Origin: Craspedostauros australis
Taxonomy: Eukaryota > Bacillariophyta > Bacillariophyceae > Mastogloiales > Achnanthaceae
Reading direction: 5' to 3'
DNA: 64,000 nucleotides
NCBI GenBank assembly: GCA_026770025.1
Contig: JAMXDE010000018.1
Coordinates: 372,001-436,000, forward strand
Below, piece by piece: positions 21,217 through 46,944 of this stretch (position 1 is its first letter; each line of letters begins with the position of its first letter). The notes beneath the pieces were generated by a model, which did no database searches, was not told the DNA's origin, and worked only from the letters and a program-made list of their open reading frames with translations. Made by a program: the position numbers and the translations under genes.

Positions 21217-24200
21217 TTACCATCCCAGTAGTCGCAATCGCAGGGATTCGAATAGTGGGCGTGCCAAGGGCTTGGTGAATATGTCAGCCATCTGGTCCAA
21301 CGTGTCGACCTTTTCGATGGTGATGAGCCCTTTACTGACAGCTTCACGGAAGTGATGGTATTTGACATTGATGTGCTTGGTACGAGGACGCATTCTGGGT
21401 GCGTTGGCGAGTTCGAGGGCACCGGAGTTGTCCTCAAATGCTGTGCAGTGAACTGTTGGTGGCGAAGTGTCGAATGACGATATGTGTTGCTTCATTTCGT
21501 TGATGAGGTGTATCATGGGTATAACCTCTCGTAAAGCTTGGCTGAGAGCTACATACTCGGCTTCGGTGGTGCTGAGCGTAACTTCTGTTTGCAGTTTGGA
21601 GTTCCATATGATGGGGAATCCTGCGTACAGGACGACGTATCCAGTGCGACTTTTTGCCGTGTTGGGGTCGTTGTTGGCTTGTGAGAAGCCTCCTGCGAAG
21701 TCTGCATCAGCATAGCAGTGAATGGAGTCGTTGGTAGGTGAGATGCGGAGTCCCTTATCCCGTGTGTGAGCGAGGTATCGTACAATCCGTTCGATGGCAT
21801 CTTCGTGTGACTTCATCGGATGAGCCATGAAGCGTGCGCATTGATGGACTGCGAAGCAGATGTCAGGTCTCGTCGATCGTGTGAGGAAGTTGAGCATCCC
21901 CACAACCGATCGATAATCGAATCGTCGAGTGGCAGCGGGGCCACCGGTGTCTTTGTGTAGGAGCGGTTTGACGGCTGGCGTCGAATAGGTTCGTCCTGGT
22001 GCATTAGGATCGATCTTGATTGCTCGTATGATTCGGTCTATGAGTTGCGGTTGTGTGAGTATGATGGTGTCATTGGTGCGTTGAGTGTGAACGCCCAGAT
22101 ATTCACTCATGTTGCCTTCGTCGGTTAGCGTAAACCGTGCCTTGAGGCGCTCGATGATGTCATCAATCTCGTGCTTGTGTGGGCCAATGATGATGGCGTC
22201 GTCAACGTACAGCAGAATGGATGTGTTGCCTTTGTAGAGAAGGCATTCGTCGACTTGGCTTTGTCGGAATCCATGCTGCATCAGGCCGTCAACTACATGC
22301 CGGTGCCATACCAAAGCTGCTTGCTTGGTGCCGTACAGATTCTTCTTGAGCTTGAGAACGTGAGACCTGCTGTCTCCGTCCACGTTGCACCCCTGAGGTA
22401 CTTGCATGAAGATGTCGCATTCCACATCCGCTTGCGGGAACGCCAGAACGAAGTCGATTTGGCGAGTGTGCCAGCGCCGTTGGACGGCCATGGTGAGGAA
22501 TGTCCGAATGGTGGACCATTGCACGACTGGAGCAAATGTTTCCCAGTAGTTGACACCATATTGTTGCTCTCCTCCATGCACGCATAGCCGTGCTTTCCAC
22601 TTGTAGATTTCGCCGGTTGCGAGTCTGCGTTTGCGCTTGAATGACCAGACGGCTTTCAGGATCTTGTGCCCTTTTGGCACTTGATTGCGTTGCACGACCT
22701 CCCAATGTTGTCTGGACTGGTGGTCTTCGATCTCCTTGTGCATTGCCTCGATGAACTTGTCGCGGTCGTTCTGCTTCTGCATTTGCCCCCAGTACATGGT
22801 GTCATCGTCTGCGAGTGTTGCCGCGAATGACATGGGGTGCAGGTCGCCGGAGTTCATGTTGAGGATGTCAGATGCATGGAAGGATCGAGCTGTGTGCGTG
22901 TGGTATGATTGGAGTTGGAGTGTAAGCTGGTTGGTCTCTGCACGTTCTGTTGCGGATGGAGCGGATCGTGATGCGTTCTGCGTGGCGATGGCGTGTGTAG
23001 GTGTAGCTCCCTCTGAAGGTGAGCTTGCTGGCTGTCTCGGAAGACTTTGCCTCGGAAGGCTGGACCTTGGAAGGTTGTGCCCCGGAAGGCTGTGCCCCGG
23101 AAGGCTGGGCCTCGGAAGGCTGTGCCCCGGAAGGCTGGGCCTCGGAAGGCTGTGCCCCTTGTGCTGCATGTCAAGCTGGAATGGCTTGGCGTCAGGTGCA
23201 GCGTGTGTGGTCCCCGGAGGACGTGTGCTTGCGGAAAGCTGGTGCTGAACAGCATGTGTGATGCGTTCGGAGCGCATCTGCTGCGAGGGCTTGGCTGGTT
23301 CGTCGATGTGCGTGAGACGCTGCCACTGTGATGCGCCAGGACGCATTAGCGGGTTGGTCTTGACTGTTTGGAACCTGTCGTCGAAGTTCAGATGGAACTG
23401 TGGCGATATGTACCCTGTGTCGATCTTGAGAACGATAGGCACGCTGCTCGCATGTTCAGCTGACATGCCAAGGAAGATGGCAATGTTGGCGCGGCTGCTC
23501 CACTTGGGAACCTGAGATCCCTGTTGGAGTGCGGCCATGAGGATGTATACAGGGCATCCAAATGTGTGAAAGTGTTGCATTGAGGGTCGGACCTCGATCT
23601 GCGCGAATTGCTGGAGTGGCGATATACCTCCCTCTCGAGCAGCGTTCCTTCGGATCTCGGAGGCGTAGCGCAGAGCATACGGCCACAGAGACGGATGAAT
23701 GGCATCATGCCAATGGTGCTGTGCATGCAGGAGCATCGAGCGAGCGGACTCTTGGAGGTCGCGGATGCGTCGCTCGGCGACGCCATTCTGATGATGAGCA
23801 TTGACTCCACAGAATGTGATGGTTTGGTTGGCTGATGCGACAGCTGTGCGGAACAGCTGCTCAGCGAATCTGCCGTTGTCGGCGTGGTAGTGGTGTATGC
23901 GGATACCGAAGGAGTGAGCATAGCGCTCAAAAGCCTGCTTGGCTTGCAGTGTGTCGGCACCAGACTGGGTGAGCTGCAAGTGAACGTAGTCAATACCGGA
24001 GTATTGATCAACGAACACTGTCGCGCATGTGTATCGCGACCAGGTGTGCGTGCCCTTTTGCTGCGGAAGCACCCCAGGTTGGCGAGAGACGATCTGATCG
24101 ACTGACACGATGTGCCCTGGGAATCGCGCTCGCTTGACGACGCGTGTGATGCGATTTGGCTTGCGCCGGCGGACGGCTTTGCCATAGATGCACCCAGAGC

Positions 24201-24981
24201 AGAGAGGGAACTCGGCCTTGGCCAAGTGCCGTGGTATGATTCCGTGTGATGCCATGTTGCGCAAGACACGGAAGGGAAGGTGCCCCAAGCGATGGTGCCA
24301 CCGGAGTAGCTGTCCCTGTGCATCGGATGCACCAACAGGATGTGTTGCCGACTGATCGCGGACCAGTGTGTTGTTGTCTTGGAGAGGATCGGGCCTCAAC
24401 TCGGCGAGCTTGGGGTCTTCATGAACCTCTATCATGTCGTCGGGGACATCGGTGATGTTGAGAAGTTCAGAATCGCTTGAAGGACTGGAGGTAGCGAGGA
24501 ATGCTGGCGCATGTCGCTTGGTGTGGATGACGGACATCAGAGGCAGGTTGGTGCCAGGATGATGGTAGACGGTTACCTTGTGACGCGAAGAGCGCAGGAC
24601 TGTGTGGTTGCCGTAGGTTGTGCAGGTACGCAAGTGCCTGCCGTGATGATCGCGGGGACCTTGGTCTGACCATTGTTGTGGACAGAACAGTCGAATACGA
24701 AGCCGTGGCGCGTAGTAAGCGTTGGCTATCTTTATCCGCAGTGGCTGGCCGTCATCATCGAGTATTGTCCAGGTTAGTGTGCCCTTGGATTGGATGGGGA
24801 TGGACCCTCCAACTCCTTGTATGGCCATGCCGCGGACTGGCTGAAGATCGTTACTGAAGTCACCACGTTGTCCAGAGACTGTGGCCGACGTGCAGGTGTC
24901 AATTCCGATTGGCACATCACCCATCTGATGCAATGTCGTCTGCATCGCGGAGATGCCTTGCAGTGCTGTGACTGATAGCAT
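21217..24981 (-). CDS. Copia 1 pol polyprotein region
   Basis: A long open frame of about 1,250 codons. In order: a protease-like start (GIDTCTSATVSG), a pre-integrase zinc region (WHHRLGHLPFRVLRN), and an integrase core with YHADNGRF and NGVAERRI. A Pro/Ser/Leu-rich repeated linker follows, then the reverse transcriptase (KARLCVHGGEQQYGVNYWET, later YVDDAIIIG) and RNase H (TEAEYVALSQALRE). The order is that of Ty1/copia, and the RT resembles diatom CoDi elements. As a fossil element no repair analysis is attempted. Confidence 0.9.
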   Translation of the reverse strand: MLSVTALQGISAMQTTLHQMGDVPIGIDTCTSATVSGQRGDFSNDLQPVRGMAIQGVGGSIPIQSKGTLTWTILDDDGQPLRIKIANAYYAPRLRIRLFCPQQWSDQGPRDHHGRHLRTCTTYGNHTVLRSSRHKVTVYHHPGTNLPLMSVIHTKRHAPAFLATSSPSSDSELLNITDVPDDMIEVHEDPKLAELRPDPLQDNNTLVRDQSATHPVGASDAQGQLLRWHHRLGHLPFRVLRNMASHGIIPRHLAKAEFPLCSGCIYGKAVRRRKPNRITRVVKRARFPGHIVSVDQIVSRQPGVLPQQKGTHTWSRYTCATVFVDQYSGIDYVHLQLTQSGADTLQAKQAFERYAHSFGIRIHHYHADNGRFAEQLFRTAVASANQTITFCGVNAHHQNGVAERRIRDLQESARSMLLHAQHHWHDAIHPSLWPYALRYASEIRRNAAREGGISPLQQFAQIEVRPSMQHFHTFGCPVYILMAALQQGSQVPKWSSRANIAIFLGMSAEHASSVPIVLKIDTGYISPQFHLNFDDRFQTVKTNPLMRPGASQWQRLTHIDEPAKPSQQMRSERITHAVQHQLSASTRPPGTTHAAPDAKPFQLDMQHKGHSLPRPSLPGHSLPRPSLPGHSLPGHNLPRSSLPRQSLPRQPASSPSEGATPTHAIATQNASRSAPSATERAETNQLTLQLQSYHTHTARSFHASDILNMNSGDLHPMSFAATLADDDTMYWGQMQKQNDRDKFIEAMHKEIEDHQSRQHWEVVQRNQVPKGHKILKAVWSFKRKRRLATGEIYKWKARLCVHGGEQQYGVNYWETFAPVVQWSTIRTFLTMAVQRRWHTRQIDFVLAFPQADVECDIFMQVPQGCNVDGDSRSHVLKLKKNLYGTKQAALVWHRHVVDGLMQHGFRQSQVDECLLYKGNTSILLYVDDAIIIGPHKHEIDDIIERLKARFTLTDEGNMSEYLGVHTQRTNDTIILTQPQLIDRIIRAIKIDPNAPGRTYSTPAVKPLLHKDTGGPAATRRFDYRSVVGMLNFLTRSTRPDICFAVHQCARFMAHPMKSHEDAIERIVRYLAHTRDKGLRISPTNDSIHCYADADFAGGFSQANNDPNTAKSRTGYVVLYAGFPIIWNSKLQTEVTLSTTEAEYVALSQALREVIPMIHLINEMKQHISSFDTSPPTVHCTAFEDNSGALELANAPRMRPRTKHINVKYHHFREAVSKGLITIEKVDTLDQMADIFTKPLARPLFESLRLRLLGW
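23036..23156. repeat. 15/30-bp minisatellite inside Copia 1 pol
   Basis: Tandem copies of ggaaggctgkgcc(cc/tc) on the + strand encode repeated LPRPSLPGHS units on the minus strand, between integrase and reverse transcriptase. The period is a multiple of three, so the frame is kept. Confidence 0.85.
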
Positions 24982-25419
24982 TGATTGGATGGGCGTGCCT
25001 TCATGTCAGTTCTCGCTTATGTTTCCATCGCTGGGAGTGGAATGCTGGCTACTGTCGTAGTGGCCATCGCTGTCGTCGAAGTGGACGTGAGGAGCTGACT
25101 TGGCGTGGACCTTGACGGATTTGGACGAGGACGATTTCTTGTCGTGCTGGCGCTTCTTCCCAGAGGAGTCAGCGTTCTTGCCGGATCGGGCGCGACAGTC
25201 GGATGTCTTGTGCTTGCCCCATGCCTTGTGGTTGTCACACCAGTGGAAGGTTGTTCCTTGGTGGACGAAGTGCTTGGGATCATTGCCCTTTGGCGGATCG
25301 CGATTGGCGAGAGGGTGGTTGCCGCGCTTGTGGCGAGCCGTCCCTTTGTTGTCTTTCTTGTTGTTTGCTCGCTTGCCGGATGACTTGTTGAGCGAGGCTT
25401 TGAGCTGCTTCGTCTCGGC

Positions 25420-26546: not shown

Positions 26547-26747
26547 TGTGCAGGTTTTTCACGTGACCGGAGGTGTTGGGGGGGGGGGGGGGGGGGGTGA
26601 AACCTGTCTGTTCTGAAAAATTATGACTGTGCGGAGCGGTCATTTGCTCAACGTGGATCCTACGCGTGGTTTGTGCGGTATCGTCTGTCCATCGACACTC
26701 ATTGTTCGGATTCGGCCAGATTCGGGAATTGGCACTAAATCTGCACA
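26547..26747 (-). repeat. 5' LTR of Copia 1 (201 bp)
   Basis: Identical to 20986-21183 except that the G run is 20 rather than 17 bases. Followed on the right by tagcg, the target duplication. Confidence 0.92.
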
Positions 26748-26752
26748 TAGCG

Positions 26753-29700
26753 ACGAACGTAGTCGTGAAAGGCGCGGTAAACGCCTGAATAACGACAATA
26801 AACGCCAAAAATTCAGTCACGGCAAATCCATTCCCAAATGTGGGAGATGCGGCAGAATCGGACACGAAACCAGTGAGTGCTGGAATGATCCGAAGAACGC
26901 AAGCCTCCGCCCAAGCGGTTGGCGCGTCCTGTCCGAAGACAAAAAGGCTTCCAATAAGAGTGATGAGAACCTCAATGTGGTCTTGACCCAAGAGGTCTTT
27001 CATCAACTCGTCCGATCCTTACCAAGCAAGAGGAATCTGAAGAAGAAGCGTCGCATTGCCGATGTAGTTGATGAAAATGCCAACTACCTGCGTCAATTGA
27101 ACCAGGACAATAATGATAACCGCTCTAGTAGCAGCGCATCTACAGAATACTCAACGCCTACACACAAATGTGCAGCAATTTGCTATAGTCTGGCTAGTCG
27201 AAAGGCCAAGCGCAGTAAGCATAACCATATGTCCACCGAAATTATTGGTGAAACGGTTGATAGCAAAGGCGAATTGGTACGAATGCGTGTCCTGCTAGAC
27301 TCTGGCACATCAAGCTGCCTGATACTGAGAAAGTATGCTCCTCGCACACTGAGACACAAAAGTGGACTCATGAAGTGGAAAACAATGGGCGGCAACTTCT
27401 ATACGTCCAGCCTGGCCACGATTAACCTAGTGCTGCCCGAATTCCACCTACATAAGTCAATCCGTTGGACCATGCACGTTGATGAAACAACGCAAGTTGA
27501 GAATGCCCAATACGATATGATCGTGGGTACAGACTTGATGCATGAGCTCGGAATAGACTTGTCATTCTCAGATAACACAATGACATGGGATAATAGCACG
27601 ATCCCAATGAAGAATCGTGGAGTGCTGACAAACAAGGAAGCACTCAACATCGCATACCAGATAGCGATGCAGTCTACCCTGCTCAACAAAGCAGAAGATA
27701 GGCAGAAGCGAATCATGGATGCTGACTACAGCGAGATAGAGCTGGATAAATACGTGTCCAAGCTGAGCCATCTCAGCGAAGCGCAACAACAAAAGCTGCT
27801 TGCAACACTCCAACATACACCAAAGACCTTCAAAGGAGGCCTGGGTACGTTGAAGATCAGTCCAGTACATCTGGAGCTCAAATCAAATGCAAAGCCATTC
27901 CATGGCAAAGCCTTTCCAGTGCCCAAAGCCTATGAGCGGGTAACAAAGAAGGAGAGCAAACAATTTGAGACGATCGGAGTGTGGGAGAAGTTCTCCAATA
28001 GTGACTGGGCTGCACCCAGCTTCATCCAGCCAAAGAAGACAGGAGATGTCCGAGTACTAACTGATTTTCGGGAGCTCAATAAGCACCTGAAACAGCGACC
28101 GTATCCGTTGCCAAAAATACAGGACATGCTCCAGAAGCTGGAACAGTTCAAGTACGCAACAGCATTCGACCTGTCAATGGGGTACTACCACATTCCATTA
28201 GATACCCCCAGCCAGAACTTGTGCACTACGGTATTACCGTGGGGAAAGTACAGATATAAAAAGCTGCCAATGGGTATATCCACAGCCCCTGACATATTCC
28301 AGCGCATCATGAATGAGCTGCTTGGAGACCTAGAATTCGTACTGGTCTACCTCGATGACATACTCGTCCTGTCGGATACAAATGACAGTGACGACGATCA
28401 TCTGACAAAATGTCATGCTGTACTCGCGCGTCTCCAAGATGCTGGGTTCGTTGTGAACCTGCGCAAGTCATTCTTCATGATGAAGGAGCTGGACTACTTA
28501 GGTTACAAACTGACGCAACGCGGCCTCGAGCCTCAGCCAAAGAAAGTGGAAGCGATACAGCGAGTGCTGCCGCCGTCGACAAAACGACAGCTGAGACGTT
28601 TCTTAGGCATGGTCAACTACTACCGCGATATGTGGAAGCGCAGGAGCCATGTGTTGGCCCCGCTTACCTCCCTCGCCGCCAAGAACATGAAATGGCACTG
28701 GGGCAAGCCCCAACAGAAAGCCTTCGATGAAGCCAAACAAATGGTAATGCGAGAGGCAGCGCTTGCATACCCAGATTTTAATAAAGAGTTCCATGTGCAC
28801 GCCGATGCGAGCGACTACCAACTTGGTGGCGTGATAGCACAGGAAGGAAGGCCACTGGCATTCTATACTCGTAAACTTAATGCCGCTCAAACGCGGTATA
28901 CCACAGGAGAGAAGGAGCTTCTCAGCATAGTCGAAACGCTGAAAGCATTCAACAATATTCTCCTTGGTCAGCAAATAACAATACACACAGATCATCTCAA
29001 TCTGTTGTACAAACCGCTATCCTCGAACAGACTCCAGAGGTGGCGAATCCTGCTGGAAGAATATGGACCAAACGTAGTCCACGTGAAGGGAGAAAATAAC
29101 GTAGTAGCCGATGCACTATCAAGACTCCCAATGGAACATCGTGACGACGATGTATTCAACACAAACGAAGACGAGAGTGTCCCACTTTCGTACATGTCAA
29201 CACGGGAAACCGAAAATGAAGAATTCCCGATGAAACCAGCACTGGTCGAGAAGTACCAGAAAAAGGACAAATCGTTGCAACGAACAATAAAAAATAGTCC
29301 GGATGAAAAATACCAGACCAAAGAGGTCGAAGGAGTCCAACTTGTACATTACAAGGACAAAATATTCGTACCAACAGAATTGCGCGCAAAAATAGCCGAT
29401 TGGTACCACCATTACTTGGTACACCCCGGGCAAACCCGGATGGAGGCAACCATTAGACAACTGTTCTACTGGCCAGGATTGAAAGCAGACATCGCTGACC
29501 GCTGCAAATCCTGTAAGCAATGCCAACTCTCTAAAAAGAACCGAAAGAAGTATGGTCACTTACCAGCAAAACAAGCTGAAGTCACCCCATGGGAAAGAGT
29601 CAACGTCGACCTCATTGGGCCATACACGATCATCACTCCATCCAAGAAGAAACACGAGATGAGAGCAATGACCATGATCGATCCAGCAACTGGATGGTTC

Positions 29701-30366
29701 GAAATAGCCGCAATTGGCCAACCAAACAGTGATGAAACCCAGAAGGCCTTTGATAGCCACTGGCTCGCACAATATCCACGACCCAGCCAATGCGGGTTCG
29801 ATAATGGAAGCGAGTTCAAACTCCTGTTTTCTACGATGTGCGATAACTTTGGAATAAAGAAGAAAACCACAAGTAGCTACAACCCACAAGGGAATGCCAT
29901 CGTAGAGCGAATCCATCAAGTATTGGGCGATGCGTTCCGCACGTTCAAACTAGATGCGATGGAACATGAGGGTCCAGACCCTTGGGAGCCCTTCCTGACG
30001 GCAGTTGCCTATGCAGTAAGGACCACGTACCACACCACACTCCAAGCAACCCCTGGACAATTGGTGTTTGGACGAGACATGCTCCTACCAGTCCGATTCA
30101 AAGTAGATTGGGCTCATATCGCAAAACGCAAACAGGATGCTATCAATCGATCCAACCAAAGAGAAAACTCTCAAAGGATTGCACATCAATACAAAATTGG
30201 GGACAAAGTCCTAGTGACCAAGCCAGGCATCCTTCCAAAGATGGCACAGCCACGGGAAGGACCATACACCGTCAAGGACGTATTTACGAATGGCACACTC
30301 CTAGTACAGAAAGGGATAGTAACTGAACGCATCAACCTGCGTCGGATCATCCCATTCTTCGAGTAG
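26753..30366 (+). CDS. Gypsy gag-end/pol region, part right of the Copia insertion
   Basis: Contains a CCHC knuckle (CGRCGRIGHETSEC), a protease motif (VLLDSGTSSCLIL) and reverse transcriptase (RVLTDFRELNKHLKQRPYPL, later LVYLDDILVL). RNase H follows (HVHADASDYQLGGVIAQ), then an HHCC zinc region and an integrase core (VNVDLIGPY, QCGFDNGSEF, NPQGNAIVERIHQ). This is the domain order of Ty3/gypsy. The region reads open to a stop 18 bp before the 3' LTR. Confidence 0.92.
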
Positions 30367-30779
30367 TGACCATCGGGAAGCGAGTGCCCTAGACGGCTGG
30401 CTAGATAGACTATTGGTGACACAAGACCTAGACTTGTGCACAATAGATACTAGTCAACAATAAGTCACCCAAGCAATCACGTTGTTAGTCTCACCTACGA
30501 GTCGTGTTAACAATCCATCCAGTCGGATCAGTCAAGATTCGAACTGAAGTCGGATTAGTCAAGACTCGAACTGAAGTCGTATTAGTCAAGACTCAAACTG
30601 AAGTCAGACGAGTCAAGATTCAATCGTAAAGAAATATTTGCATATCCATGAGGACAGATTCTGTCTGGGGAGACCAAAAATGGCCATTTTGGGCTCAGGA
30701 GACAAAGTTACCCGGAGGTTCGCCAAAATCCGGTCTGAGGAGACAATTTTCAGTTCCACGTGATAAATCTCCACGATAG

Positions 30780-30915
30780 GACCCGGTTGTGTGACGGGAC
30801 CTGCAGTCGGTCCTGGAGGGGTGGCAACTTACGGGGATTTCAACCAAACCACCCACATATTCATAAACTAGAGGAAAATATAAGAATCTCAGTGGACGCC
30901 GATTTTGTTTTAATG
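30780..30915. repeat. Left terminal inverted repeat of transposon Y
   Basis: About 135 bp, matching the reverse complement of 35199-35333 with about four mismatches before similarity is lost near 30915. Confidence 0.88.
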
Positions 30916-31211
30916 GTTTATTTTAAGTTTTATGGACCCATCGATTTCGCGCTCATCTAGACACGACTAGCGCACTACGGCCAGATTCGGTGTCTTGGTA
31001 CCTTGATTCGTATCGCCAAAAGAAGAATTATCGATGTCAATTGCAGTGCTAATTTATTTTCTTAGTCCCTCCAATCCGTGATACATGTGAAACCGTTGAA
31101 TTGGCGTTACGCTGTGAACACGTGCACCAATCAAGGACGATCCAGCAGTGAAGCAGTTGCACAGACTCGTACGACATCGATAAGACTCATAATCTGCATC
31201 TTTACCCCTTT

Positions 31212-32810
31212 TCATCTTAATTGGGTTTCACGTGTGTAATAACTTGCCTCCATTGCAGCTCTGACTCGCCGCAACAATTGTGTTCTCACATTTTGTTCCA
31301 CCAACTCCGGAGATTCCGTATTCTCCTTCATTGTTTGTGTCTCGCACGCAATTTGCTCCGATGCTTCGTTTTCTTCTTGTTGCAGCGCGATTTCCTCCTC
31401 ATCTGCTGTTGTGTGTTGTGCAGGCACGATCTCTGTGTGGGTGCTGTTCGCGTTCGTCGGTGGTGGGGTGTTCGTTGTGTTCGTTGCGTTTTTGTTGATC
31501 GTGGTTTCCAGGGTACTCGTGTTCGTGGGCTTCGGTTTCGTGCGCTGGTACGACGCGGACATGTATTGCTTCACTCGCATTGGGTTCACGTGTACCCGCG
31601 CATACCAGTCAGTCTTCATTTCGGTCGTCTCCATGCACCGCCTGAATGCCTCGTACTCAGTTGGTCTGTTCTTCGGGTTCGCGCGTGCCACTCTGCACAC
31701 CTCCTCCAACACTTCCACCAGGTATGGGCGAATGGGCTTGTTACGTCGTACGGCTTTCGCAGCCCAGCCAGGTTCAGTCAATCGCGGATGTTCTGTTGCT
31801 GCTGTGGTGTCCTGCAGCACACTACTTACGTCAGGTGTCTCCAAGGCTGCCATGTTGATCCCTTCGAGGTACGTCAGCGCCTTGCTTTCGGTGGCACTCT
31901 TCGCGAACCTGAGGGTCTTTTTCTGCTTCCGTGGTGATGTTGCTGCGAGTGGCTCTTGTGTGGACTGGTGTTCTATCATGATAGGAACCTCGGAATTCAT
32001 GACGTCATAGTCTTCCCATTCAGCTTCCTCCACATGCACTGGATCAGTAACATTTGAAGCTGTAAGTACGTCTGCGTAGCCGTTTCTGTGTTGCACCTCG
32101 TGCGTTGATCGTATATTCATGCCCTTCGCGCGGAACCTGATGCGTGTATTTGTCTTGTGCGTCACACAGCGACCTTTCAAACCCGATGCGTCAACCAAGA
32201 CGGTGGTAGTACCTCTGATATTTCCCATTCGCATCGCGACGACAATTTCGTGTTCGGTTTGAATCTTGCCGCCACTTTGCACATAGGATCGTAGTACAAT
32301 AGTGATGTAGGCGAAGTGAGTGTAGATTCGCCCTTTGCCTGTTTGGGCTTCTGTGTAGATCCAAACAACAAATTGGGGAAGTCCGTTGCATGACGCATTC
32401 TTGTTGATCCGTGATGAGACGAGCGCAATGTGCTCGTGGCTGGCAAAGCAGCCAGCGTTGTCTGACTGCAGGATGATTTCTGTCACCGATGGTAGGAGAT
32501 CGCGTACCTTCTTCTGGATGGCTTTGAGAAGCCCACCAACTTTAAGTGTGTCTTGGGTTGGCAGGTCATGAACAATTATATCAACAAAGCGATACGTGAA
32601 TTCGTCATCTTTGCAAGTGACAATCATAACACCAAGGAGCGACATGCCCTTCTTGCCCCAGTACTCTGTCTGCAATTCTCCTTGCGCTGTCAGCAGAATC
32701 TTCTGCTTATGGTTGATGACGACATAGGTGCACTTGTCATTGTTGTTGAGCTTGGCCTTGTACTTGTTCATCTGATTGAATTGGACCTTTGCTCTCACTT
32801 GGTGTGCCAT
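31212..32810 (-). CDS. Transposon Y ORF3: DDE/RNase H-fold transposase-like protein
   Basis: 532 residues from the ATG at 32810. The N-terminal part reads QTEYWGKKGMSLLGVMIV, then LQSDNAGCF (Asp117), then YTEAQTGKGR (Glu154). From memory, this spacing and the SDNAGC(Y/F)...EAQxGK pattern match a widespread group of uncharacterised animal proteins with the form MDFAMKF...WYGKRG...SDxAGCYH...SEPQxGKD. I infer an RNase H-fold nuclease. At the position where that group has the first Asp, this copy reads VVINHKQK (Asn33), so catalysis may be lost. The C-terminal half is polar and Thr/Asn/Glu-rich with no known domain. The frame is continuous with ORF2 apart from one TAG. Confidence 0.6.
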   Translation of the reverse strand: MAHQVRAKVQFNQMNKYKAKLNNNDKCTYVVINHKQKILLTAQGELQTEYWGKKGMSLLGVMIVTCKDDEFTYRFVDIIVHDLPTQDTLKVGGLLKAIQKKVRDLLPSVTEIILQSDNAGCFASHEHIALVSSRINKNASCNGLPQFVVWIYTEAQTGKGRIYTHFAYITIVLRSYVQSGGKIQTEHEIVVAMRMGNIRGTTTVLVDASGLKGRCVTHKTNTRIRFRAKGMNIRSTHEVQHRNGYADVLTASNVTDPVHVEEAEWEDYDVMNSEVPIMIEHQSTQEPLAATSPRKQKKTLRFAKSATESKALTYLEGINMAALETPDVSSVLQDTTAATEHPRLTEPGWAAKAVRRNKPIRPYLVEVLEEVCRVARANPKNRPTEYEAFRRCMETTEMKTDWYARVHVNPMRVKQYMSASYQRTKPKPTNTSTLETTINKNATNTTNTPPPTNANSTHTEIVPAQHTTADEEEIALQQEENEASEQIACETQTMKENTESPELVEQNVRTQLLRRVRAAMEASYYTRETQLR

Positions 32811-32822
32811 GTACACAGTGAT

Positions 32823-34136
32823 CTAATTGTAGAAGCCCAGTACCGCCTCCAGCATACTGCCTAATTCATCCTCATGGTCGCCAAGATGATCGGCCTTGAG
32901 CGTCTCGATGAATGGTGCGACGCGAACATCCATGAATCGCATCGCGTCTCCACATCTGTCGCATACTTTGCCTTGTTGATCATGAGCGATGGGAGGAATG
33001 GCATTGGCATCACACTCTGTTGTTGTTGTGGGAGGATGAATGACCACGCATGTCATATCGGTGCTGGCAGGTGCTGTTGTGGTGGTGGTGTTGAGTGTAG
33101 ATTTAGCCTGTCGCGTTTTTGGATCGCGGCGAAGCGCGAAATGAGCGCAGTGCATGCAGTCTTCTTTGCACTTGATCTGCATGTGCGACGCAGTATACTC
33201 CCACTTGAGGCATGTGATCATTAGGTCCAGATCGCGCACCAATGTCTCACAGGTTTGAATATACTCCACGGTTAGGTCGTCGTGTCCGTCATCACTGTTG
33301 AATGAATCCTCGAGTAGGGTATTCAAGCGCACGAGCATCTCCTTCAGCGTCTTGGTTGCCATCCAGAAGTAGTTTTCAAAAGAGGAGAGACCAGTAATAA
33401 CTTTGCCTCTGCGTGTGAGCAGGCCCGTCATTGCTTGGAATGCTGGCTTGCTGACTGGATTGTTCGTCGTAATCTTGTACATGTGGAACAGCTTGTCTAC
33501 GCTCGTTCTGCCACATTCGAATACTGGCACGTTTTCAAATATCACCCCTCCCAATTTGATAGTGTGACAAAGGCCCACCTTGTATGTGGTTGTGTTGCTG
33601 ATGAAGGACACCATGCCAGCCAAGCTGTATGTGCTGACACGATAGTCGTGAACAGCAGCACCAAGCACATTGCCCTCGCGCAAGAGCTCGTAGTAGTTGC
33701 GCAGAGTGAGGAGCTGGCCTCGTGTGATGGTGTATTGCTCTGGCAAGAGGCGAAGACGCTGATCGTCAGGAAGTTCGCTCTTGTGTCGCGAGAGGAGGTT
33801 AGTACACTGGCGTGGAGAGACAGACATGGCGAGAATGCACCTTGCTTTGCGTGCAATGTTTTTCTTGCCAACGAGGCAAATCGCGTAGAGGTTGGGAGCC
33901 AGCTTGATAGGCGGCAAGTCTACCCCCGCGCGCACGAACACCACCACCTGTTCCATCTGAGGAACTGGCAAGTTCATTGCCAGAATCAGCGCTTTCCACA
34001 GCGCATTGGAGGCCACCGCGAAGATCTTCTTCGCTTTGCTCCACACTTGCTTGTCGGAATTGTGCCCCAACACAAACCCGTAACGCGGCAAGTCGGCCAG
34101 CACAGTCGCAAGGTTCTTCACTCCAAGCTCTTGCAA
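32823..34136 (-). CDS. Transposon Y ORF2, unknown protein with Cys clusters
   Basis: About 437 codons. The open frame begins with a TTG codon and the first ATG comes some 50 codons in, so the true start is probably an upstream exon or ORF1 by splicing or frameshift. The C-terminal part contains CKEDCMHCAHF and CDRCGDAMRF, which look like metal-binding clusters; the rest is not recognised. A single TAG at 32823-32825 separates it from ORF3, in the same frame and 12 bp before the ORF3 ATG. ORF2 and ORF3 may therefore be one protein, with the TAG a mutation, a readthrough stop or part of an intron. Confidence 0.55.
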   Translation of the reverse strand: MQELGVKNLATVLADLPRYGFVLGHNSDKQVWSKAKKIFAVASNALWKALILAMNLPVPQMEQVVVFVRAGVDLPPIKLAPNLYAICLVGKKNIARKARCILAMSVSPRQCTNLLSRHKSELPDDQRLRLLPEQYTITRGQLLTLRNYYELLREGNVLGAAVHDYRVSTYSLAGMVSFISNTTTYKVGLCHTIKLGGVIFENVPVFECGRTSVDKLFHMYKITTNNPVSKPAFQAMTGLLTRRGKVITGLSSFENYFWMATKTLKEMLVRLNTLLEDSFNSDDGHDDLTVEYIQTCETLVRDLDLMITCLKWEYTASHMQIKCKEDCMHCAHFALRRDPKTRQAKSTLNTTTTTAPASTDMTCVVIHPPTTTTECDANAIPPIAHDQQGKVCDRCGDAMRFMDVRVAPFIETLKADHLGDHEDELGSMLEAVLGFYN

Positions 34137-34786
34137 ACCTTGTGGATGGTTTCAAACGCATCTCTCTTGTTCGTGTTGTGCTTGTTTTGGAATCTTCCCG
34201 CATTTGATTTCCTGCTCTTGATTTTGTTGCGTCCCTTGGGGCGGAAGGCTTCGTTGTCGCCAGCCTTGCGGCATTGGATGCGCTTGCCTATCTTTGCTGG
34301 TTGGATAGTCGGTGCGGGAAGGGGTGCGGGGAAAGCTGGAGGAGTCGGGACGCAGACTTTGACATGCACTTTTGTCCCAGCATTGGAGCCCTGTCCAAAG
34401 GCCTGGACTGTGACCTTGGAGGTGTCAAGAATCATGCCATTATCGGTGGTGATGTGCACACAGACGAAGAGGTTCTCGTTGGTTGCATTGAGTGTGCAAT
34501 TTTGCTCGTGGTTGCCTAGGATCTCAATGTCACACTCGTTGTTGAAGGTCGCGCCTTCGAGCACAGGAGGGAGGAGCTTGTCTGTTGCAGAAGTTGGATT
34601 GTGCTGCTTACCATCCATATCCAATGGAGGCAAGAGCTTCTCAGCAGTAGATGGTGCAAAGAGTTCCTTGCAATCAATCGGATCGGATGGGAAGGGACGC
34701 ACGGATGGAGAGGAGGGAAAACGCTGCTTCTTGGAGGGAGAAGGATTGGCGTCCTTCGACGCAGCTTTCGTGGTAGAGACGGGCAT
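34118..34786 (-). CDS. Transposon Y ORF1, unknown basic protein
   Basis: 222 residues from the ATG at 34786 (MPVSTTKAASKDANPSPSKK). The N-terminus is Ser/Pro/Lys-rich. A central stretch (GATFNNECDIEILGNHEQNC, later LFVCVHITTDNGMILD) has alternating hydrophobic residues like beta strands. The C-terminus is strongly basic (RPKGRNKIKSRKSNAGR). It overlaps ORF2 by 19 bp in another frame. I do not recognise it; DNA binding is only suggested by the charge. Confidence 0.45.
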   Translation of the reverse strand: MPVSTTKAASKDANPSPSKKQRFPSSPSVRPFPSDPIDCKELFAPSTAEKLLPPLDMDGKQHNPTSATDKLLPPVLEGATFNNECDIEILGNHEQNCTLNATNENLFVCVHITTDNGMILDTSKVTVQAFGQGSNAGTKVHVKVCVPTPPAFPAPLPAPTIQPAKIGKRIQCRKAGDNEAFRPKGRNKIKSRKSNAGRFQNKHNTNKRDAFETIHKVCKSLE

Positions 34787-35198
34787 GATGCTGATTGGTA
34801 CTGATGGGTGGATAGAGAAAACTAGTAATGATGGAAATGAACTGAGCAGGAGGAGTGCAAGAAGGTGACAACCGCAGAAAAGCAAAACTCGATTTGGCGG
34901 CAAAATGTGAGGAGATTGGTGACATGTGACGAGAGTCAAATTTGAATTTGAATGGTAACGTCAACTAACGGTTTGTTATTTCGAAAACGTGCTCGGACAA
35001 GTTGAACAATGGCGTCGCTGAAATGTCAAATTCCGTACGCAACCCGTCAAAAAAAGTTCTTTCCCGAACGTGTCTGCGCACATTGCGTTGTTTGCATCGG
35101 AAAAGCTAATCAATGCCTTGCGATCATCACGGAGCAGTGTTCATATTCGACCAAGAGGACCGTAAATCTACAAAGGTGGATAACAATTAAAAGAAGGC

Positions 35199-35333
35199 AT
35201 TAAAGCAAAATCGGCGTCCACTGCGATTCTTATATTTTTCTCTAGTTTATGAATATGTGGGTGGTTTGGTTGAAATCCCCGCAAGTTGCCACCCCTCCAG
35301 GACCGACTGCAGGTCCCGTCACACAACCGGGTC
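35199..35333. repeat. Right terminal inverted repeat of transposon Y
   Basis: Reverse complement of 30780-30915; ends CCGTCACACAACCGGGTC, followed by the duplicated atag. Confidence 0.88.
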
Positions 35334-35595
35334 ATAGGATTTTGCGGTCGAATACTTCGACTAAAAGAAACTCTGCCAGCTCTTCGTTCTGACATCTCCT
35401 CCTCCAAGATTTTCTTCATCGTCATTGTTTCTTCGCTTTCCTCCAGATGGCAACAACCCTCCCTCTCCAATCTCCTTGCCTGCTGTGGTTCATTTCATCC
35501 CATCATCAACCTCGCACCTCCTTGCTTATCATTCGCAGCATCCCCCATACTGCCTTCTTCTTCCAGCTTGCCTTCTTCGATACGTCAACTTCATC

Positions 35596-38309: not shown

Positions 38310-38769
38310 CAAAGTAATAACACACAAATGTCCATCAAATACAGGGTGGTGTATCGTTCCTGTGAAGAGGCGTGGTCACAAATCATTGTGATGCAAGAGG
38401 AAGAACGCTGCGGAACGATCATGTCCTGTGAAGAGCGTGGAGGACATGGATAAGCATGCAATGAACGTATGTATACGAAGAACTGTGATGAGATGCAAGT
38501 GGCTCAATGCATCCAGGAGAAGCATTGAGCCATAGTAAGCAGGAGGGCATGCCAGGACATTGAGAAATCGGAAAAAACGATATGAGGGGGGGAAAAAGTG
38601 AGCGCGAACAAATAGTTTTAGTCGAGGTGGTCGAAGAAAATGCCATCGCGATAAAACGTCGCGTTGCTTGATTTTGGTCTGAGGAGACCAATTTTGGCAC
38701 CCCTCGAATCCGCTTGGTCTCCTGAGACAATTTTGGACTTTTATCGTGGACGAATTTCCTCATGGATAT

Positions 38770-41700
38770 CCATGAGGACAGATTCTGTCTGGGGAGACCA
38801 AAAATGGCCATTTTGGGCTCAGGAGACAAAGTTACCCGGAGGTTCGCCAAAATCCGGTCTGAGGAGACAATTTTCAGTTCCACGTGATAAATCTCCACGA
38901 TAGGATTTTTCGGTCGAATACTTCGACTAAAAGAAACTCTGCCAGCTCTTCGTTCTGACATCTTCTCCTCCAAGATTTTCTTCATCGTCATTGTTTCTTC
39001 GCTTTCCTCCAGATGGCAACAACCCTCCCTCTCCAACCTCCTTGCCTGCTGTGGTTCATTTCATTCCATCACCAACTTCGCACCTCCTTGCTTGTCATTC
39101 GCAGCATCCCCCATACTGCCTTCTTCTTCCAGCTTGCCTTCTTCGATACGTCACCTTCATCATGGCATCTTCTCTTCCACCTGATGCTCCCAATGCCAAT
39201 GACGACTTGCCCACAGCTTCCACTCCAGTTGCAACAACCGGCCATGGCAATGTCTCTCCATCCCAGCAGCTTCATCCCTTTGGACACATTTTGGATGATG
39301 GAATGGGTGATGCAGGCAAGCACACCCATGAAGAAGAAGGAGATGGCATCTGTGTCAACAGTGATGACAAGGGTGCGGTGCCAACATTGGTGCTTCGAAA
39401 TCCGGTTGGTGATTTTGGAGTCCAACCGTGCTCGCTTCCTGGCTACAGCCATCGCATCGTCCTCCCTCCCAAGAAAGGGAGTCGGGAGATCTCTGTGGAG
39501 TGGAAGGTGCTCTCGGCCTACAAGCATGCAACAAAAGTGACTGTTGGAGAAGCCCAGAAGCTTGCTCTCCTCCATGCAAAGGAAGAGATTCGTTCACTGT
39601 GAACAGCTGTCTTGCAGCGCTTCCCCAGGAGTCCTCCTGGGTCTCCACCATACGTGCCAACACCCCATGACTTGATCTACGATGTGCTGGGCCCCACATC
39701 TCCCATTTTCATCCATGCATTTGGCCCAAGCGGGCTGGGTTTCTCATATGCTGAGTACATGGAGTTCCTCTATGCCATCACATCACAGATGGTGGAAGGC
39801 TGCACCGTTCGTCGGCTCTACGATGGCGGCAATGCTTCCACACTTCCCAGCTTTCCTGCCAGACAGCACTACGTCAATCTCTGGGATCGTATTCAACGTA
39901 ATGGAAACCCTGTCTCTCAGAATGGCCATCGCTTTGTTTGGACCGAATTGGAAAGTGCTTTCAACTTGACACTTGAGATTCTTTGTCTTCAGCATCGTTG
40001 CCCGAATCAGATTGTCACATTGGATGATGACAAGGTCCATTGCAGCAGCCATGCAGAGAGCAGCTATCTGCTTGACATGAGACATACTCATGCAAATCGT
40101 AATGGGTAAGTGACAAACAGCATTGTGTGTTTTGTTGCAGAGGGGTGGCATCTCCATTTCATATTTCAATTCCTCACCCCAGGTCTCCGTCTCGTTTCCG
40201 TCTTCTGCGTTCCTTCAGATTAACCCTGAACACTCTTGTCCAGTCTGCTTCTGGACTTGTTGTGGGGTTGGCTGCTTGCCAAGATCGGTTGGATGACGAC
40301 ACCTATCGGTTGTTCACCCAACTAAAAGAACCAGATGGTTCTGTTCAAAATCTAACCCTCATGACAGATCGAGGATACAACTGCCGCAGCACCACCGTCT
40401 TCCTCACTACCAGGGGTGCCAATCTGGAGGGTACACACATGCAAGCTGGATGCCTACCATTCACCTTTGGCCCATCCATTGGAAAGGGTGCACTCCAGAT
40501 GAATATTGGGAGGAAGGGGCCAAGGATGGTGCATTGCGCTGTCACCAACAGCATCGGCAAACGACAATTGACATGCTATGGATACCGTCTCAACGAACAA
40601 ACTGTACTTGCACTCTCCACAAGATTGAGTGGCTTTGAGTGAGACCTTACCCTCACCAACGCCAGTGACCAACAAAAGTACCAAGACATGGTGGAGGACA
40701 AGCATGGGAACAATCGAAGATCCCCACACTACCCACACTTCTTCCAAACATGCACTGTCAATCCAACACGCTCGTTGGCAGTCAGAGCTGCCATATCCCA
40801 AACTCCCCTTGGCGCAACCGGCATTGTGGCTGCCGCATCCAAGAATGTGAAACAGCGTTGGGCAGACATGGTGTGGGATCTGCCTGTGGATGGACTCACC
40901 TGTGGCCAGGGTGACCATCTGTGGTTCGTCCACCGCCGCTTCGCGTTCACGAGCACCTCCACCTACAGCATGATACAGAAGGTGCTTGAAAGCGGAGAGT
41001 GGTGCAATACTGACAACACCACCATATTCAATCAACCTGCATGGGAGTGCATTGGCCGCTACTTGGGATATGACGTGCTTGGTCGGAAGGCGAAGTACCT
41101 CCAAGCATTGCAAGCAGAAAAGGCGAGATTGCGTGCACTTGATTTATACTCCAAACTCACATCTCCCATCTTCAATTCCCGTCATGTTGAAATTGCACTT
41201 CTCTCTTCTCTCCGCGACGATGCCCCTGAAGAGGATACCTTCTCAGGCAAAGACTTCATCGAACTCATGGCTATTTTTTACCGCAGCAAGGCCCAGCGAA
41301 GCAAAGTCACACGATGCAAAATGCTCCGCACCATCCTTGCTGATGACGACAAGGTTCGACGGCGATTCCTGGCCATCAACGACGCCCTCAAGAAAGACCT
41401 CAAGGCTCGTCTCCCCAAGACCAACATAACAAAAATGCCACGAGAGAAGGTTGTGGAGAGATTGGTTGCCCTGGCGATGAAGGAGATCGAGCAGGAGCCT
41501 GACCATCCATCCAGTTTCCAGGCAGGAAGCACCACTTCAGAGTGGATGCACAAGCTTGACCACGACCTCACGACTCTCATGTTACAATCGTGGTTCATGA
41601 AGTTGGTTCGGGGCAAGGCTGAAAAGCTCGCCAAGCTGGGCCACAAAAACGAAGCTCCCCTCATGAAGCAGGCCCTCCACTGTGTTGGAGTGGGCGGTGA

Positions 41701-42327
41701 GGGAAGGCAAGTGAAGGCGATGTACCAAGTGGGGGTGGTGCGAAACACCGATGCACCAGCACCACAGAGACCGCAGATGCGCTCGGAGACAACTCCACAA
41801 CGACCGCGAACACGAGCAGCTGCTCAACAAGGAAAGTACAGCCATGGGAATGGGTCAAGATGTAACATATAGCAAAGTAATAACACACAAATGTCCATCA
41901 AATATGGCGTGTGTATCGTTCCTGCAAAGAGGTGCGGCCACAAATCGTTGTGGTGCAAAAGGAAGAACGCTGCGGAACGATCATGTCCTGTGAAGAGCGT
42001 GGAGGACGTGGATAAGCATGCAATGAACGTATGTATACGAAGAACTGTGATGAGATGCAAGTGGCTCAATGCATCCAGGAGAAGCATTGAGCCATAGTAA
42101 GCAGGAGGGCATGCCAGGACATTGAGAAATCGGAAAAAACGATATGAGGGGGGGAAAAAGTGAGCGCGAACAAATAGTTTTAGTCGAGGTGGTCGAAGAA
42201 AATGCCATCGCGATAAAACGTCGCGTTACTTGATTTTGGTCTGAGGAGACCAATTTTGGCACTCCTCAAATTCACTTTGTCTCCTGAGACAATTTTGGAC
42301 TTTTATCGTGGACGAATTTCCTCATGG
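38770..42327 (+). mobile_element. DNA transposon X, copy 2 (3,558 bp)
   Basis: Begins CCATGAGGA and ends TCCTCATGG, and lies directly after copy 1 with only atat between them. The same tetranucleotide follows its right end (42328-42331) within the split gypsy LTR. It is full length and not interrupted. It differs from copy 1 by scattered substitutions and small indels, roughly a few percent by eye. Confidence 0.9.
39162..41872 (+). pseudogene. Transposase of transposon X, copy 2 (broken)
   Basis: Same structure as copy 1: exon 1 39162-40105 (944 bp in both copies), donor GTAAGT, acceptor at 40182 or 40218, and exon 2 to 41872, about 877 codons. In-frame TGA codons lie at 39600-39602 and 40640-40642, and both are sense codons in copy 1. 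The two copies therefore carry non-overlapping nonsense changes. Blocks IVTLDDDKVH and LMTDRGYNCRS are conserved. The length and intron are shared, so this is a true gene family and not chance open frames. Confidence 0.78.
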
Positions 42328-42721
42328 ATATGAGAAGACACCTCTTCAACCAACCATTGACCTCCATTCAAAACAAGAAGGCTAATAGAAATTGACCAAG
42401 AGGTGCAAACCGAATAATCTCGAAATGCATGAATACGATTGACCAAGAGGTGCAAACCGAATCATCTTGAGATACGATCGACCAAGAGGTGCAGACAGCA
42501 GAAGAGAGAGAGATAGCTCAAGTAATCATAATTTTTGGAATTACATCATCAACACCAACCTCAATCGTATCAAGTACAAAATCAATCGTAGAAAAAAATA
42601 CAACTTCAATCGTACGCCGGCATAAGGCACTTGTCGTCACAGTCATAGCATGGATATCCAACCTGCTTCAACTCAAGCGGGGAATCTGATGGTGAATTCC
42701 AACTGCAACTGCTGCTGCATC

Positions 42722-43526: not shown

Positions 43527-46500
43527 TCATTCGAATGTTCTCGATGTGTCAAGGTACGACTTCTCATGTTCACGTTGCAAGTCGGCCTTGATGTTCTTGG
43601 TGAATCCGTCGCTTGTGTTCTGCTCGGATTTGACGAAAATGATTTCGATGGTTTTGTTGATTACCATATTCCTCACGTAGTGATGGCGCACGTCGATGTG
43701 CCGCGATCGTTGGGATGTTGATGGGTTCTTGGCGATGAAGATCGCTCCGATGTTGTCCACACGGACCTTGATCGGTGTCTTCACTGGGACGCCCACACTT
43801 TCGAGTAGCTGCACAACGAAGAAGATCTCCTTTACCGCTTCGGAAAGGGCAACATATTCTGCTTCGGATGAGCTGAGTGTGACGGCCTTCTGTGCCTTGG
43901 ATCGCCAAAGGATTGGTACCTTGCACAGGTATAGGATGAATCCCCCTACGCTGATTCTTGTGTTCTTGTCTCCTGCATATTCGCTATCGCAGAAGAGCTC
44001 CATGTCCCAGCCGTCGTCGTCTGGACGCGCTGGATGGATCTTCAATCCATAGTCCTTTGTATCGATCACATACTTGATGATCCGATACATCTCCTTCATT
44101 GCGGCCTTGGTGGGCCCAATCAATACCTTGGAGAGTTCCCTCACAGGGTTCGCGATGTCTGGTCGCGAGTGCTTGATGAGGAAGAGTAGCATACCGACGC
44201 CTCGGCGATATTCGGCATGTTCTTCCGGTCCGACCTTCTGCAGTCCGTTATCTTCGGATGGTCGTACGATGATTTGACCCGGGGTTCCCGGTGTCCCGTA
44301 GCGTTGCATCTTTTCAACCTTGGTTCCGAACTCTTCGATGAGGTGTCGGATGAGATGTGGTTGACGCAATGTCGCTCTAGTCTTGTCATGGTTCAGTTCG
44401 ATGTTACAGCTGAGGTAGTCTCCGAGTCCGCGCTCGATTGTCACCTTGAATTTGCTGCCTTGGATGTCCTTCAGGAATGTCTCCAGTGCTTTGGAGTCTC
44501 CGCAACAGAAGCAATCGTCCACGTAGATGGCCACGATCATGCTTCCTTCGTTCGTCTTTCTGTAGAACAGACACGGGTCTGCTGCGCTCTGTTCAAAGTT
44601 GATATTCTTGAGGGTCGATACCAACATCTTGAACCATTGCCTGGCGCTCTGCACAAGTCCGTAGATTGGCTTGTGTAGGGTCAGGGCTTCGTCTGCTTGA
44701 TGATCCATCCCGTTGGGACAGTTCATGTAGATCTCCTCGTCGAGGTCTCCGTGTAGGAATGCCGTTACGACATCGACGAGTGCGCAGTCCATCTTCTTGA
44801 TTAGCATGATCACCATTATAACCCGATAGGTCACGTCATGGATGACGGGTGAGTAATGCTCTTGGAAGTCTACTCCTGCGACTTGTGAATAGCCACATGC
44901 AACGAGCCGCGCTCGATGTGTGCCATCACGCTTCAGCTTGAAGACCCATTTGCACTTGCAGCATCTACGGCCGCGTGGGATGGCGTCTCGTTTGATCTTA
45001 CTGTACACCTTTCGTGTATCCATGGAATCGAACTCCTTCTTGATGGCTGCTCGATATCCCTTCCGATGGATAGGATCTGGGTGATTGAAGGCTCCATCGA
45101 ATGTTGTAGGTTCGATATGCTTCTCTGGTTCCTTGTTTTCGTCCTGCATCGACAATCCGATGTCGATCGCTGGTCTCTCGGTGATGATTGCATTCATCCC
45201 GTATAGTCCTGTTGTGCTATAGTGAGTGATCTCGATCTCTCCTTCATCTTCGTCTATGATTTCTTCGTCATCTGTAGTTTCGTTGTTGGAATCGTCGATC
45301 ATCTCGTCACTGAGTTCGTCACTCGCCTCATTGGATGATGGATCGCTCTCATAGCCTTCTTCCTTTCGACCTCGTTCGTTGAAGTCTGCGAGCTCGCGCA
45401 GAGCTCTGGGAATACTCTTCCCTGTAGTTGACTTGGGATTAGCTTCTCCCTTCCTGCCTCGTGCTTTGTGACATCGGATCCTCTCCTTTCTAGCTATGTC
45501 ACGCTTGCTTGGTTTGCTCGGTGGAGGTCTGGATGGTGTGTCATGTGTAGACCTCGCTGGTGTGTTCGGAGGAGTGACGCCTGTGTCATCGTCGGCTTCG
45601 TCGCCGGATGGTAGGATCTCATCATCTTCATGATTGGATTCGCTCCGATCTTCCTCGTCATTGTGGACTAGTTGAGTCGTTACTCCATCGTCCTCATTAT
45701 CCTCATCATCGCTGTCTGATAGGATGTAGTATCTGTTGCTGTCAGCGAAAGATACTCTCTTCGCTTCCGATGTTTGACGCGTTGCCGTCCTTGGCGTTGC
45801 TCCCTTCCGTCCGATGGTTGTGAAGCCGTCTGCATCCGTTGTTTCTGCTTCGTTGGATATGTTCGGTGCTGGTGCCCAGCCACGGAACTGTCCGTATGAT
45901 TGGTTGAGCCACTTGATGTCGCGTGAGCAGATGAGTGACTTGGTCGATGGTCTGTACATGTTGTAGACCCCTGATGCATGTTGGTGTGCATATCCGATGA
46001 ACACCATCTCTTCTCCTCTGTTCTTGAGTTTGGCGGTAATCCCGCTGTAGGTAGTCTTCACAACACCCACCTCTCCAAACGTGCGGAGTGCATCCGCATA
46101 TGGTGGATCGTTGCCAAAGAATTGTCGATGTGGTGACTCCTTCTGGTTCTTCGCTACAGTGATGTTGGCGATGGCGGTGGCAGTGCTAGCAGCCGCTGCC
46201 CACAGGCCATGCCTATACTCTTCGTCGAGCTGTGCTCCGTTGAGCATGGAGCGGACCTTGGTGTAGAGGTACGCGAACTTGCGTTCCACTCTGCCGTTCT
46301 GTTGCGGCGTGTTCGATGCCGTGTATTCGAATTTCACGTTGAGTCCTGCATCGATGAGAATATCCTGCGTGGATTTGTTCTCTCCGCTGTTGTCACCTCG
46401 GAAGATGATCTGTTGGTCACCAGTCTGTGACTTGATCGTTTGAACGAATCGTTTGATGTATCCTGGTTGGTCACTCTTGTTCTTGAGGAAGAAACTCCAG

Positions 46501-46931
46501 CAGTGATCCGTGCAGTCGTCCACGATCAGGGTCCAGTAGCGTTTATCTCCGAAGCTTATGTGTTTAGTGTAACTAATGTCAATGAAGAGCCGTTCGCCAC
46601 GGCGAGTTGCTCTCGGAATGGTTGCCTTCGGAATATTCTTCACTCTTGCATTCGCAACCGCGCAGTCACGACATACCGGCATCTCGCCGATAATCTTCCA
46701 TCCATACTGAGCGGCCGTCCGCTTCATGGTTTCGAGTGGCGCGTGCCCGAGCATTCGGTGCAGGTTCACTGCGCTGATCTCCTTGGATGGATTCTTGACG
46801 ATGGCTGTGCAAGCCTTGTCGTCGTCTGTTGGCATGATGGGATGCATCTGCACTCCCGTGATAAATCCGTTGGATGTGGGGAAGACTCGATCGAACACGA
46901 TCTTCGTTCCGGATCCGTTGATGATGTCCAT
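43527..46931 (-). CDS. Copia 2 pol region (integrase, reverse transcriptase, RNase H)
   Basis: About 1,130 codons. It shows a pre-integrase block (NLHRMLGHAPLETMKRTA) and an integrase core (FRGDNSGENKSTQD, later NTPQQNGRVERKFAYL). After a long acidic linker comes reverse transcriptase (VDVVTAFLHGDLDEEIYMNC, YVDDCFCCGD), then RNase H (SSSEAEYVALSEAVKEI) ending RSRHIDVRHHYVRN. This is the order of Ty1/copia. The 60441-62156 copy is a close relative. Confidence 0.92.
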   Translation of the reverse strand: MDIINGSGTKIVFDRVFPTSNGFITGVQMHPIMPTDDDKACTAIVKNPSKEISAVNLHRMLGHAPLETMKRTAAQYGWKIIGEMPVCRDCAVANARVKNIPKATIPRATRRGERLFIDISYTKHISFGDKRYWTLIVDDCTDHCWSFFLKNKSDQPGYIKRFVQTIKSQTGDQQIIFRGDNSGENKSTQDILIDAGLNVKFEYTASNTPQQNGRVERKFAYLYTKVRSMLNGAQLDEEYRHGLWAAAASTATAIANITVAKNQKESPHRQFFGNDPPYADALRTFGEVGVVKTTYSGITAKLKNRGEEMVFIGYAHQHASGVYNMYRPSTKSLICSRDIKWLNQSYGQFRGWAPAPNISNEAETTDADGFTTIGRKGATPRTATRQTSEAKRVSFADSNRYYILSDSDDEDNEDDGVTTQLVHNDEEDRSESNHEDDEILPSGDEADDDTGVTPPNTPARSTHDTPSRPPPSKPSKRDIARKERIRCHKARGRKGEANPKSTTGKSIPRALRELADFNERGRKEEGYESDPSSNEASDELSDEMIDDSNNETTDDEEIIDEDEGEIEITHYSTTGLYGMNAIITERPAIDIGLSMQDENKEPEKHIEPTTFDGAFNHPDPIHRKGYRAAIKKEFDSMDTRKVYSKIKRDAIPRGRRCCKCKWVFKLKRDGTHRARLVACGYSQVAGVDFQEHYSPVIHDVTYRVIMVIMLIKKMDCALVDVVTAFLHGDLDEEIYMNCPNGMDHQADEALTLHKPIYGLVQSARQWFKMLVSTLKNINFEQSAADPCLFYRKTNEGSMIVAIYVDDCFCCGDSKALETFLKDIQGSKFKVTIERGLGDYLSCNIELNHDKTRATLRQPHLIRHLIEEFGTKVEKMQRYGTPGTPGQIIVRPSEDNGLQKVGPEEHAEYRRGVGMLLFLIKHSRPDIANPVRELSKVLIGPTKAAMKEMYRIIKYVIDTKDYGLKIHPARPDDDGWDMELFCDSEYAGDKNTRISVGGFILYLCKVPILWRSKAQKAVTLSSSEAEYVALSEAVKEIFFVVQLLESVGVPVKTPIKVRVDNIGAIFIAKNPSTSQRSRHIDVRHHYVRNMVINKTIEIIFVKSEQNTSDGFTKNIKADLQREHEKSYLDTSRTFE

Positions 46932-46944
46932 CAGAATGCCGTTG

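Follow-up and report, generated by a model that had tools for sequence, protein, structure and literature searches.

The transposon copy at positions 30780-35333 (4,554 bp) of the window, that is, of the whole 64,000-nucleotide stretch of DNA analysed here, is quite probably a dead member of an abundant family of terminal-inverted-repeat (TIR) transposons, with one DDD/E-type transposase of about 1,200 amino acids and the following mechanism of movement. In the model proposed, the family encodes a single transposase of about 1,200 aa, the N-terminal half of which would bind the long inverted repeats, with the core acting as a DDD/E-type RNase H-like enzyme that would cut at the GACCC ends. The ends would then be joined to the target at NTAN sites, the two strands being staggered by 4 bp, which would give rise to the 4-bp duplications. 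The route would presumably be of the cut-and-paste rather than the replicative kind.

The two termini of the window copy are perfect inverted copies of each other, each reading GACCCGGTTGTGTGACGGGA, and a 4-bp target-site duplication, ATAG, stands on either side of the element, as had been proposed in an earlier reading made from the sequence only (Table 1). The inverted repeats, which that sequence-only reading had put at about 135 bp, are present and measure about 155-160 bp, the arms of 162 nt (including 3 nt of flank) being 93% complementary with a BLAST E of ~6e-65. The window also contains an element-free site, a segmental duplicate of the flanks of the element. Its alignment with the two flanks, fused at a single ATAG, covers 3,573 columns at 95.9% and includes 2 gap openings. 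Because this duplicate lacks the element, the insertion is demonstrated within the window itself. The features of a TIR (class II) DNA transposon, namely terminal inverted repeats, a duplication of fixed length and an empty site, are all found, and the earlier assignment to the DNA transposons is borne out by the termini, the ATAG duplication and the element-free site.

Table 1. Coordinates of the transposon features and of the element-free site in the window.
Feature	Position	Strand	Remark
Target-site duplication, left, ATAG	30776..30779	.	
Terminal inverted repeat, left, begins GACCCGGTTGTGTGACGGGA	30780..30938	+	162-nt arms, 93% complementary
ORF3 (C-terminal part of transposase gene, candidate catalytic core)	31212..32816	-	same frame as ORF2
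Third candidate acid codon, Tyr in window copy, Asp in 41/43	32322..32324	-	core position 184
Glu154 codon (TEAQTGKG), Glu in 43/43	32349..32351	-	core position 175
Second candidate acid codon (QSDNA), Asp117, Asp in 40/43	32460..32462	-	core position 138
First candidate acid codon, Asn in window copy, Asp in 36/43	32712..32714	-	core position 54
TAG stop between ORF2 and ORF3	32823..32825	-	
ORF2 (middle part of transposase gene)	32823..34136	-	aligned to intact protein
CxxC pair (CDRC), possible zinc site	32952..32963	-	invariant in 6 aligned full-length proteins
ORF1 (N-terminal part, ends at frameshift)	34118..34786	-	aligned to intact protein
Terminal inverted repeat, right	35175..35333	-	
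Target-site duplication, right, ATAG	35334..35337	.	
Element-free duplicate of flanks, single ATAG at 38900-38903	38763..42331	+	

Segmental duplications with identities of ~94-99.9% are found in the window at 35334-38769/38900-42331 (the pair that supplies the element-free site), 13931-17962/52097-56242 and 18045-19639/56243-57837. The left side of the transposon is adjoined by a Gypsy-like element (26617-30363, plus strand) with RVT_1, RNase H, H2C2 and a weak rve match, and Copia-like elements with RVT_2, gag and a zinc knuckle are located at 21220-25005 and 43530-49704, both on the minus strand.

The genome search for the termini and their flanking duplications, which the sequence-only reading had suggested as a check, covered both ends of 18 copies including L033, a member of a distant subfamily; L027, L030 and L032, for which the sequence retrieved around the copy contained a single inverted repeat, and the distant copies L034-L036 were left out of the duplication count. 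Perfect 4-bp duplications flank 14 of the 18 copies (ATAG in four, ATAA, ATAC and TTAT in two each, and GTAT, TTAC, CTAT and ATAT in one each), and all 14 conform to the pattern NTAN, TA making up 2.9% of the dinucleotides in the window. The other four of the 18 (L018, L028, L029 and L031) show no clean duplication, and the duplication of L020 depends on the boundary chosen, being seen with a right boundary whose terminal bases are altered and not with the alternative one. The distant copy L033 likewise begins with GACCCGG and is flanked by an ATAC duplication, and the ends and the target rule are therefore common to the family, as far as tested. Two groups of elements can be set aside on these grounds: the TTAA duplication of piggyBac and Kolobok occurs in none of the 14, and the 2-bp TA of Tc1/mariner does not account for outer bases that differ among sites and are also duplicated.

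The family is abundant and widely spread through the genome, with many intact copies. Across all 90 contigs (74.8 Mb) of the genome, a search with the ORF3 protein gave 455 candidate places, of which 81 were scored, all counts being lower bounds; these at least 81 places comprise 26 near (69-100% identity) and 55 distant ones (45-51%). In 41 of the 81 scored places (3 near, 38 distant) the frame stays open for at least 1,170 aa and the match is free of stops, and the seven intact frames that were read (L019, L021, L023 and L033-L036) encode 1,183-1,295 aa. Of the 21 pairs of these intact genes, 19 have a dN/dS of 0.10-0.26; the ratio is 0.57 for the pair L019/L021, which are 98.9% identical, and is undefined in one pair owing to saturated dS; the other pairs of near with distant subfamilies have dS >2, which makes their ratios rough. 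Judging from these sequence comparisons, the transposase has been selected as one unit, with purifying selection in many copies. Of 113 inverted-repeat candidates 40 were scored, and among these no two ends lay within 2 kb of each other, the spacing that short non-autonomous derivatives would show.

The three ORFs that had been described for the window copy are pieces of one gene, which in other genomic copies is single and uninterrupted, with a length of about 1,180-1,300 aa. ORF2 and ORF3 share one minus-strand frame, with nothing but the TAG to divide them, and ORF1 joins ORF2 at a frameshift near 34118-34151. Of the earlier description, the basic character of ORF1 and the Cys clusters of ORF2 hold as features, and their allocation to separate ORFs does not, both residing in one protein. 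An element with three separate genes, which could appeal to the frameshift position near residue 248 shared by four copies (L013-L016) and therefore to a split state that was inherited, is hardly credible and was rejected, being contradicted by the intact single-ORF copies in near and distant subfamilies and by the continuity of ORF2 and ORF3 across one TAG, a region in which L014 has an open frame of 739 aa.

The window copy itself is dead on several counts: it has a frameshift, a TAG, and Asn and Tyr in place of the first and the last candidate Asp, respectively. This copy (L013) and L014-L016 have the frameshift and the Asn in common and occupy different sites, with the differing duplications ATAG, ATAA, GTAT and TTAC. 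The simplest reading would be that such defective full-length copies were mobilised by the enzyme of intact relatives. Alternatively, the first candidate Asp may be dispensable, and hence perhaps non-catalytic, because copies bearing the Asn have spread. Full-length copies at separate sites with a common frameshift and a lost candidate Asp provide a natural setting in which to test mobilisation in trans.

Two copies contain additional DNA. They are located at G000:C7:1488165-1496883 (L019+L081) and G000:C58:268592-277311 (L021+L082), measure 8,719 and 8,720 bp and are 97% identical, with different outer duplications (ATAT and TTAT), and each is enlarged by about 4 kb, in which an ORF of 829 aa is located. 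Of this ORF, 434 aa match PF13843, a family of piggyBac type (E 2.3e-11), which is why the ~4-kb insert is probably a nested element carried along by the host element; the insert is apparently flanked by CTAG, not TTAA.

The sole rRNA locus matched in the assembly (L078, G000:C62:20700-30699, minus strand; L037) is possibly more unusual than the transposon. Its SSU gene spans 4,940 bp and is covered by the Rfam SSU model end to end (1-1831, 666 bits), with ten interruptions of the form GTA(A/C/T)G...AG in the 3' third, which by eye are like spliceosomal introns; one of the exons is about 14 nt long. A group I intron (68 bits) lies in the LSU part, and the locus was the sole match of a 231-base exon query. 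Alternatively, an rDNA array may be missing from the assembly. At its 3' end the SSU looks stramenopile-like, and the rRNA of the genome that hosts the element gives this impression.

The candidate catalytic core was aligned in 43 sequences, 44 loci having one and L030 (82 residues) being dropped. The three conserved acids of a DDD/E enzyme are found in it, the first as the D of VV[IL]DHKQ (36/43), the second as the D of QSDNA (40/43), and the third as either the E of TEAQTGKG (43/43) or the D of R[IL]DTHF (41/43), nine residues past Glu154. The SDNAGC and EAQTGKG motifs noticed earlier are present in ORF3, and Asp117, one of the two residues singled out by that reading, fits the second catalytic acid. 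The other, Glu154, is invariant as expected, and it is the Asp nine residues on that fits better as the third acid. This last Asp presumably begins the stretch where other DDD/E enzymes have their third acid, and because of this match in position the D of R[IL]DTHF, and with it a D-D-D rather than a D-D-E arrangement, is favoured on the alignment and the predicted structure.

The RNase H-like layout that had been suspected gains weak support in the order of strands and helices. In an AlphaFold2 model of the window core, made from the single sequence and having a low pLDDT of 33, the strands, helix, strand, helix and strand follow in RNase H order, and the final segment is a strand where the RNase H helix is expected. 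The averaged propensities reproduce the five main strands and give mostly strand at the positions of the first and the last helix. A PDB fold search with this weak model returned nothing at E <= 0.001, weak unrelated folds being the only matches, and an RNase H fold of the core is accordingly put forward as a hypothesis. A nuclease of another type, in which the conserved acids would have other roles, could draw on the low confidence of the model and on its missing last helix. It is nevertheless improbable, as the first candidate Asp follows predicted strand 1 and the second follows predicted strand 4, and elements that combine long inverted repeats with a fixed 4-bp duplication are typically the work of DDD/E enzymes. 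The transposase most likely works as a DDD/E enzyme.

The element had been left without a superfamily by the sequence-only reading, and the profile searches agree with this: Pfam gave no transposase family for the three fragments of the window copy, among them the ORF3 for which an HMM search had been proposed, or for six complete proteins and six cores, and nothing significant was matched in NCBIfam, PHROGs or PDB sequences. Weak profile matches in these four collections were disregarded as unrelated. The Pfam scan can be said to work because the same library picked up both the retroelements of the window and the piggyBac-type ORF of the nested insert. By eye, the 43-row alignment contains no C/DxxH motif of the kind typical of the hAT/P/MuDR/Kolobok/Dada group, the nearest being a CxxxH (CFASH). 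Among viral contigs, two alignments gave 42 and 75 pattern matches with none confirmed by tblastn, prokaryote genome contigs gave 102 and 80 with none confirmed, and plasmids and phages gave no match by tblastn with one core at E up to 10. This lack of relatives says little, because the collections are prokaryote, viral, phage and plasmid ones and pattern-based scans reach close relatives best. The order of the SDNAGC-type motif around the second acid presumably resembles that of uncharacterised animal proteins; a pattern for an animal-like motif of this kind retrieved 20 stretches, none of them like the core by eye, and a literature text search for SDNAGC-type peptide words brought up nothing relevant.

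The family is large, has many intact copies and goes unrecognised by the profile libraries searched. Membership in another described superfamily, e.g. Academ, KDZ-like or EnSpm-like, too divergent for the profiles used, is unlikely. In its favour, the libraries in our judgement hold few models for rare eukaryotic transposases, and more than 20 DDD/E superfamilies are counted in Repbase according to PMC9587614 and PMC10045372. Against that, no weak transposase match appeared at E up to 5 or 10 with a library that caught the retroelements and the piggyBac-type ORF, and GACCC termini with NTAN duplications are unlike those of TTAA or TA inserters. For Academ, Zator, Novosib, KDZ/Zisupton and EnSpm the comparison consisted of the Pfam scans of proteins and cores, which returned no transposase family. 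That the transposase, unplaced by the libraries searched, defines a new superfamily, with a protein of about 1,200 aa, DDD plus an invariant Glu, GACCC ends and a strict NTAN target, is possible and at present doubtful; the criterion used by Repbase, as quoted in PMC4455052, is an iterated profile search converging at E < 0.005.

Among the named systems, the integrase-type Ginger1 and Ginger2 resemble the element in duplication length, which is 4 bp, or 4 or 5 bp, according to PMC10045372. They differ in that the proteins and cores of the element have no rve or H2C2 match in Pfam, and an integrase-type assignment is not supported by these scans, the same library having returned rve in the retroelements of the window; an hhalign comparison with the integrase region of the window gypsy element gave a probability of 0.2%, a weak test given the shallow profile. 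The nearest named superfamily is Sola, and a divergent member or sister branch of Sola (Sola1/2/3), with DDD and 4-bp duplications, is the leading specific guess, if a tentative one, the comparison being one of descriptions and not of sequence, termini or target preference. The stramenopile-like impression given by the rRNA would suit such an affiliation. Sola-1 and Sola-2 are present in a brown alga, as stated in PMC12477816. According to PMC10741241, Sola has a DDD transposase, 4-bp duplications, most elements of 2-9 kb, inverted repeats of 11-1124 bp and a wide distribution, and all of these descriptors are compatible with the element, which shares the 4-bp duplications, has a size and inverted-repeat length within the range and may have a DDD transposase. 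With regard to DDD versus DDE, the invariant E and the near-invariant D are both candidates here for the third acid. If the family is not Sola, it would represent an additional transposase lineage; if it is, it would be a well-preserved protist member of that superfamily, in which many genes are intact and the NTAN target rule is sharp.
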